The position numbers and the translations under genes were made by a program. From Clostridia bacterium (GTDB taxonomy: Bacteria > Bacillota > Clostridia > Acetivibrionales > JAFADI01), in assembly GCA_026417615.1 (NCBI GenBank), contig JAOACY010000035.1:1-41403 (forward strand): 41,403 nt of DNA. Reading direction: 5' to 3'. Below, one piece after another: positions 1,332-2,637 of this stretch (its first letter is position 1; each line of letters opens with the position of its first letter). Under the pieces are notes generated by a model, which saw only the letters and a program-made list of their open reading frames with translations, was not told the origin of the DNA and ran no database searches.

Positions 1332-1354
1332 GTAAAAATTGGGAGGTGGATAAG

Positions 1355-1780
1355 ATGGCAAAGAAAATTACTGGATACGTAAAACTTCAGATTCCTGCAG
1401 GAAAGGCAACTCCGGCTCCACCGGTTGGACCAGCTTTAGGACAGCATGGCGTTAACATAATGGGATTTTGTAAGGAGTTTAATGAAAGAACTGCGAAGGA
1501 CGCAGGCTTGATTATACCTGTAGTTATTACGGTATATGCTGACAGGTCCTTCTCGTTTATCACAAAAACCCCGCCCGCTTCAGTCCTGCTGAAGAAGGCA
1601 TGCAAAATAGAAAGCGGTTCAGGCAAGCCAAACAAGGAAAAAGTAGCCAAGATTTCAATGGCTGAAGTAAGAAAGATTGCAGAACTGAAAATGCCCGACC
1701 TGAATGCGGCAAGCGTTGAAGCGGCTGCAAGCATGATTGCCGGTACGGCAAGAAGCATGGGTATTGTTGTGGAAGGATAG
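1355..1780 (+). CDS. rplK: 50S ribosomal protein L11
   Basis: L11 forms the base of the ribosomal stalk with L10-L7/L12 and helps the GTPase translation factors act; with 23S rRNA it forms the thiopeptide-binding site. The 141-residue protein has the N-terminal [20 protein letters not shown] motif with the conserved prolines (about residues 10-29) and the C-terminal rRNA-binding domain ending in [11 protein letters not shown] 1355 follows GGGAGGTGG at 1341-1349; a longer reading from 1316 has no ribosome binding site and is rejected. It pairs with rplA downstream, as usual. Confidence 0.96.
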
Positions 1781-1790
1781 TTACAAGATT

Positions 1791-1823
1791 ATGGTGGGAG
1801 GAAGCCAGGCACTGAAATTCCAT
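1791..1823 (+). promoter_or_regulatory. putative ribosomal protein L1 operator in the rplK-rplA gap
   Basis: The segment contains GGTGGGAGG (1793-1801) followed by TGAAAT (1813-1818) and CCAT (1820-1823), and ATGG at 1791-1794 can pair with that CCAT. The same two motifs, GGUGGGAGG and UGAAAU-CCA, face each other in the L1-binding helix of 23S rRNA (helices 76-77). L1 is known to repress its own operon by binding an mRNA copy of that site. Position and motif order support the same role here. The inner helix is not clear by eye. Confidence 0.6.
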
Positions 1824-1941
1824 ATTTGCAGCAGGATTTGACGCAAAGAGGAGTTTTAGGCCTTGGGTGCGGTGCTTTCCGATAAGCGGGGAGTATTTGC
1901 CGGCTGTTTCCGTAAAATTTACCACGAAGGAGAGGATATTG

Positions 1942-2637
1942 ATGAAAAGAGGAAAGAAATATCTTGAGAGCTCAAAGCTCGTTGATAGATTAAAGCTGTA
2001 TGACACATCGGAAGCTTTAGAGCTTGTTCAAAAGACAGCAAAGGCAAAGTTTGACGAAACTGTTGAAGCTCATATCAAGCTTGGTGTTGACTCAAGACAC
2101 GCAGACCAGCAGGTAAGAGGCGCTGTTGTTCTCCCTCACGGAACAGGCAAAAAGGTAAGGGTGCTTGTTTTTGCCAAGGGTGAAAAGGCAGTAGAGGCTG
2201 AAAAGGCTGGAGCCGAATTTGTAGGGGCGGAAGATCTGGTAGCAAAGATTCAGAATGAAAACTGGTTTGAATTCGATGTGGTTGTTGCCACTCCAGACAT
2301 GATGGGTGTTGTCGGAAGACTCGGTAAAATTCTCGGTCCGAAGGGTTTGATGCCAAACCCAAAGGCAGGTACGGTTACAATGGATGTTGCAAAAGCCATT
2401 GCGGATATCAAAGCCGGTAAAATCGAATACAGGCTTGACAAGACAAATATAATCCACTGCCCTATCGGAAAGGCATCATTTGGCACAGAAAAGCTTGCTG
2501 ATAATTTCCACACGTTAATGGATGCCATAGTAAAGGCAAAACCCGCTGCCGCAAAAGGCCAATACTTAAAGAGTGTGGTAATCTCCTCAACAATGGGGCC
2601 GGGGATAAAAATCAATCCCTTGAAAGTTGCGGAATAA
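1942..2637 (+). CDS. rplA: 50S ribosomal protein L1
   Basis: L1 forms the mobile L1 stalk of the large subunit, which moves deacylated tRNA out of the E site, and it also represses translation of its own mRNA. The 231-residue protein is of standard length and carries the family signature around [17 protein letters not shown] (roughly residues 121-137) and the [14 protein letters not shown]-like N-terminal block ([20 protein letters not shown]). ATG 1942 follows AAGGAGAGG at 1927-1935. An upstream in-frame extension to 1867 runs through the putative L1 operator region and has no ribosome binding site. A promoter for the next operon begins directly after it. Confidence 0.96.

Follow-up and report, generated by a model that had tools for sequence, protein, structure and literature searches.

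In the genome of a Clostridia bacterium, the genes rplK and rplA of the ribosomal proteins L11 and L1 are separated by 161 nt, and the question arises whether this gap carries an operator through which L1 controls its own synthesis and, if so, which nucleotides belong to it. L1 autoregulation as well as sites close to rplA are established: such sites are found upstream of rplK in Proteobacteria and upstream of rplA in Actinobacteria and Cyanobacteria, and at times each of the two genes is preceded by one, e.g. in Firmicutes (2024 review, PMC10931766, section 3.1; for the latter citing reference 84). Since the review reports L1 sites before rplA, an operator at this place would represent a known arrangement.

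The stretch of 41,403 nt that was analysed, hereafter the window, starts with the gene order rpmG-secE-nusG-rplK-rplA-(L10 leader)-rplJ-rplL-rpoB. An earlier note on this DNA had proposed a compact 33-nt hairpin (1791-1823) as an mRNA mimic of the L1-binding site of 23S rRNA, formed by ATGGTGGGAGG (1791-1801) and TGAAAT (1813-1818) and closed by ATGG pairing with CCAT (1820-1823). The letters are as claimed. From a comparison of sequences we conclude that the gap very probably holds an L1 (uL1) operator, albeit one other than the proposed hairpin.

Sites Before rplA in Related Genomes

Across 80 clostridial loci collected by scanning genomes, and across the genomes of the window's order described below, one motif was present in the gap almost everywhere: GUGG-GA-G...C-G-(about 6 to 12 nt)-CCAC, with the Shine-Dalgarno sequence immediately behind it. 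With the window added, 81 loci with both gaps readable divide into 44 with sites before both rplK and rplA, 22 (the window among them) with a site before rplA only, 12 with a site before rplK only and three with a site before neither gene. The order of the window was sampled with 53 genomes, including L003, the one available family relative. A GUGG-GA-.../CCAC site stands directly before rplA in 52 of these 53 relatives, L132 being without one, and a covariance model matches 51 of them, with one match apiece. No L1 site was found in the rplK leaders of this order (0 of 51 readable), nor in the window upstream of rplK (1245-1354), even with the model filters off. The sites of the order relatives bear out the earlier note in placing an L1-site mimic between rplK and rplA, and its suggestion that L11 may escape L1 control agrees with the rplK leaders of both window and order.

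In a draw of 199 genomes across the phylum, the window's own included, the model had a match in 140. The best 30 of these hits all lie before rplA, and six of the 30 are accompanied by a second site before rplK. A predicted site proximal to rplA is hence the usual case in the sampled Bacillota genomes and not an unusual arrangement. Within the order of the window, the model also recovers the site of L112, which overlaps the rplK stop, and that of L130, which carries GUAG/CUAC. In L081, where about 800 nt lie between rplK and rplA, a compact site is still found directly before rplA, in keeping with an element that goes with this gene.

Several further observations were made in these loci. The long gap of L081 contains an extra coding sequence, YbjQ-like by eye, upstream of the L1 operator. 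In L095, an order relative, the 3' part of the site is lengthened by a long stretch that holds a second CCCG...TACCAC-like 3' strand, and in four Clostridia (L026, L056, L073 and L132) neither rplK nor rplA is preceded by a recognisable L1 site. In L046, L037, L051, L059 and L068, the two L1 sites within a genome are far more like each other than like the sites of different genomes (a likeness this high was reached in 0 of 2000 permutations); L046 has a similar long apical extension in both its rplK and rplA leaders, and this likeness suggests duplication or gene conversion between its two operators. The rplK start region, in the window (1339-1350) as in order relatives, shows a strikingly conserved extended Shine-Dalgarno sequence, TTGGGAGGTGGA, without an L1 site.

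The Probable Operator and Its Surroundings

Both strands of the irregular stem with its asymmetric internal loop, GUGG-GA- and -CCAC, are present in the window (Table 1). The 5' strand, GTGGGAGG (1794-1801), is nearly invariant in relatives and had been correctly recognised in the earlier note. For the other strand, the family relative L003 reads GTGGGAGGAAACTTTGTTTCCGAAAAAATTTACCACGAAGGAG, and the window reads GTGGGAGGAA, then 104 nt, then TTCCGTAAAATTTACCACGAAGGAG. From this alignment it follows that the 3' strand is TTCC-G-TAAAATTTA-CCAC (1908-1925), about 110 nt beyond the 5' strand, with the conserved TACCAC at 1920-1925 beside the rplA Shine-Dalgarno sequence. The TGAAAT-CCA that had been taken for the 3' strand falls within the insert, and a search of 57 other genomes of the order found this insert in none of them. 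The 3' side of the internal loop measures 10 nt in the window, about 9-12 nt in most order relatives and mostly 6-8 nt elsewhere, which makes it about 3 nt longer in the window than in most other Clostridia.

Table 1. Features of the rplK-rplA region of the window.
Feature	Position	Strand	Basis or remark
rplK (L11)	1355-1780	+	Pfam PF03946 and PF00298; upstream gene
Lower helix, 5' strand GUGG	1794-1797	+	Nearly invariant in relatives
Internal loop, 5' side GA	1798-1799	+	Conserved GUGG-GA-G in relatives; same in 23S rRNA of order relatives
Upper helix, 5' strand GGAA	1800-1803	+	Pairs with 1908-1911; homologous to GGAAAC/GUUUCC of L003, L004 and L006
Apical-loop insert, 104 nt	1804-1907	+	Predicted two-armed closed domain; contains TGAAATTCCAT of the earlier note; no match in the other genomes searched in the order
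Upper helix, 3' strand UUCC	1908-1911	+	Comparison with relatives and folding
Internal loop, 3' side GUAAAAUUUA, 10 nt	1912-1921	+	Comparison with relatives
Lower helix, 3' strand CCAC	1922-1925	+	Nearly invariant; UACCAC common to the 23S L1 site of order relatives
rplA Shine-Dalgarno GAAGGAG	1926-1932	+	Abuts operator; same adjacency in relatives
rplA (L1)	1942-2637	+	Pfam PF00687, E 1.9e-75; regulated gene and proposed repressor

The rplK-rplA gap gave 0 matches to the covariance models of Rfam 15; the L1 sites of 20 relatives were likewise without a match, and no named L1 leader was found there. Further downstream, Rfam 15 places an L10 leader (RF00557, 63.4 bits) at 2694-2838, in which a terminator-like hairpin (2795-2824) precedes rplJ.

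Covariation and Folding

From 41 compact sites without the window, RNAalifold returned GUGG/CCAC and a three-pair upper stem unprompted. This upper stem covaries, with 21 cells changed on both sides versus 5.5 in shuffles, and its pairing breaks when the partner is slid (97.6% of cells paired versus 40-68% after the slide). The lower stem is almost invariant and yields little covariation evidence, partly because the sites used for the model were picked by the GUGG/CCAC motif; the compensated change from G-C to A-U in L130 supports the pair. Of the two motifs named in the earlier note, the one on the 5' side is nearly invariant in relatives, and the one on the 3' side is unique to the window genome among those searched in the order. 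Since the model was built from compact sites and the 104-nt insert is too long to be scored, it neither supports nor refutes the site of the window, which itself stands outside the model alignment.

The leader of the window folds better than 200 of 200 shuffles (z -3.62). Its best fold reaches -52.0 kcal/mol, and the canonical L1 fold, when enforced, -50.0 kcal/mol, i.e. within 2 kcal/mol of the best. In the best fold of the naked RNA the register of the lower stem is shifted by two (UGGUG/UACCA at about 0.5 versus GUGG/CCAC at about 0.1-0.2), so that the unbound RNA is predicted to slightly prefer the former register. This preference counts against the proposed operator, as does the longer 3' internal loop.

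Resemblance to 23S rRNA of Order Relatives

The assembly of the window genome gave no match to its own 23S rRNA. In three order relatives, the 23S rRNA reads AGGUGGGAG...UUGGGAUACCAC, with the core GGUGGGAG...GGGAUACCAC; GGUGGGAG and UACCAC are common to these molecules and the mRNA of the window, and the covariance model finds the 23S sites of these relatives weakly (8.7-10.1 bits). The L1 site of 23S rRNA (H76-H78) differs from that of the window in its upper stem and apical part, and its 3' loop reads GGGAUA in place of the 10 nt listed in Table 1.

Proposed Mechanism and Alternatives

With a probability of about 0.88, we regard the rplK-rplA gap as an autogenous L1 operator that would occlude the Shine-Dalgarno sequence of rplA. 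In this operator, GUGG would pair with CCAC, next to which an asymmetric internal loop (GA facing GUAAAAUUUA on the 3' strand) and the upper stem GGAA/UUCC would follow, capped by the 104-nt apical domain. L1 in excess of free 23S rRNA would bind to this leader and lock the stem abutting GAAGGAG, which would block ribosome entry on rplA. The output of L1 would then track rRNA supply, and L11 would be affected at most indirectly. The position, the two strands, the covariation, the resemblance to the 23S rRNA of order relatives and the lack of a detectable rplK site come from comparison; the blocking of the ribosome-binding site is what we infer, and it would be the simplest reading because the stem ends right at GAAGGAG.

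One could imagine that, because of the insert, the operator of the window genome is no longer functional and that both strands are mere relics. The insert was indeed found in this genome only, and the compact-site model gives no match, but neither strand is damaged, and the site still abuts the Shine-Dalgarno sequence. Furthermore, the insert (1804-1907) is predicted to form, at -42.7 kcal/mol, a closed domain whose ends meet, with two arms at a three-way junction, in which 1812-1821 (CTGAAATTCC) pairs with 1850-1859 (P ~1.0 in the leader ensemble). The sites of L016, L033, L042 and L046 also carry long apical extensions, and a broken operator is accordingly unlikely. As a repeat or mobile element the insert was rejected, as it is single copy in its own genome and unmatched in the other genomes of the order.

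It is similarly improbable that the rplA leader acts by transcription attenuation or mRNA processing instead of covering the ribosome-binding site. The neighbouring L10 leader with its terminator-like hairpin would fit such a mode, for which the B. subtilis rplJL leader provides a precedent (reference 219 cited in PMC10931766). However, a consensus scan of the gap (1781-1941) found neither terminator nor promoter, and the missing terminator-like site speaks against attenuation, as does the conserved element abutting the Shine-Dalgarno sequence in nearly all relatives.

Equally doubtful, in our opinion, is that the insert serves as a functional second domain, grafted onto the apical loop of an otherwise ordinary operator, where it would tune the binding of L1 as an additional sensor or as a stability element. 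Lastly, the compact hairpin can hardly be the L1 site itself: ATGG and CCAT are able to pair, and TGAAAT(-CCA) resembles the 3' strand of the 23S L1 site of some other bacteria such as Thermus more than that of this order, but the order relatives have GGGAUACCAC and not GAAAUACCAC. With the closing helix, moreover, UGG would separate the stem from GA, an arrangement that differs from the relatives. The pair probability of this helix in the leader ensemble is 0.0, enforcing it costs about 18 kcal/mol (-33.7 vs. -52.0), and as a unit the hairpin (39-nt fold) does not surpass shuffled sequences, of which 144 of 200 fold as well (z +0.63).

Comparison With Known L1 Operators

If the autogenous operator proposed here is correct, L1 feedback in this clostridial order would be placed on rplA alone, which predicts separate control of L1 and L11, in contrast to the E. 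coli arrangement. The element itself is also of practical interest, since it is widespread in Bacillota and yet unmatched by Rfam 15 in the sequences scanned, so that a covariance model would be useful.

Overall, the operator of the window is like the rplA-proximal L1 operator of Bacillota in its position within the rplK-rplA operon and its irregular stem with an internal bulge, and like that of the Bacillota relatives read here in its GUGGGAG/UACCAC strands and the adjacent Shine-Dalgarno sequence. The apical insert is, in brief, its sole local oddity; the full list of differences adds the longer 3' internal loop and the rplA-only rule of the order, in which a single site is found and none before rplK. 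With the L1 operator of E. coli, as a representative of the Proteobacteria, it would share the same protein and the same principle of rRNA mimicry; the E. coli operator, however, lies before rplK, where no such site was detected in the window, and controls both genes.
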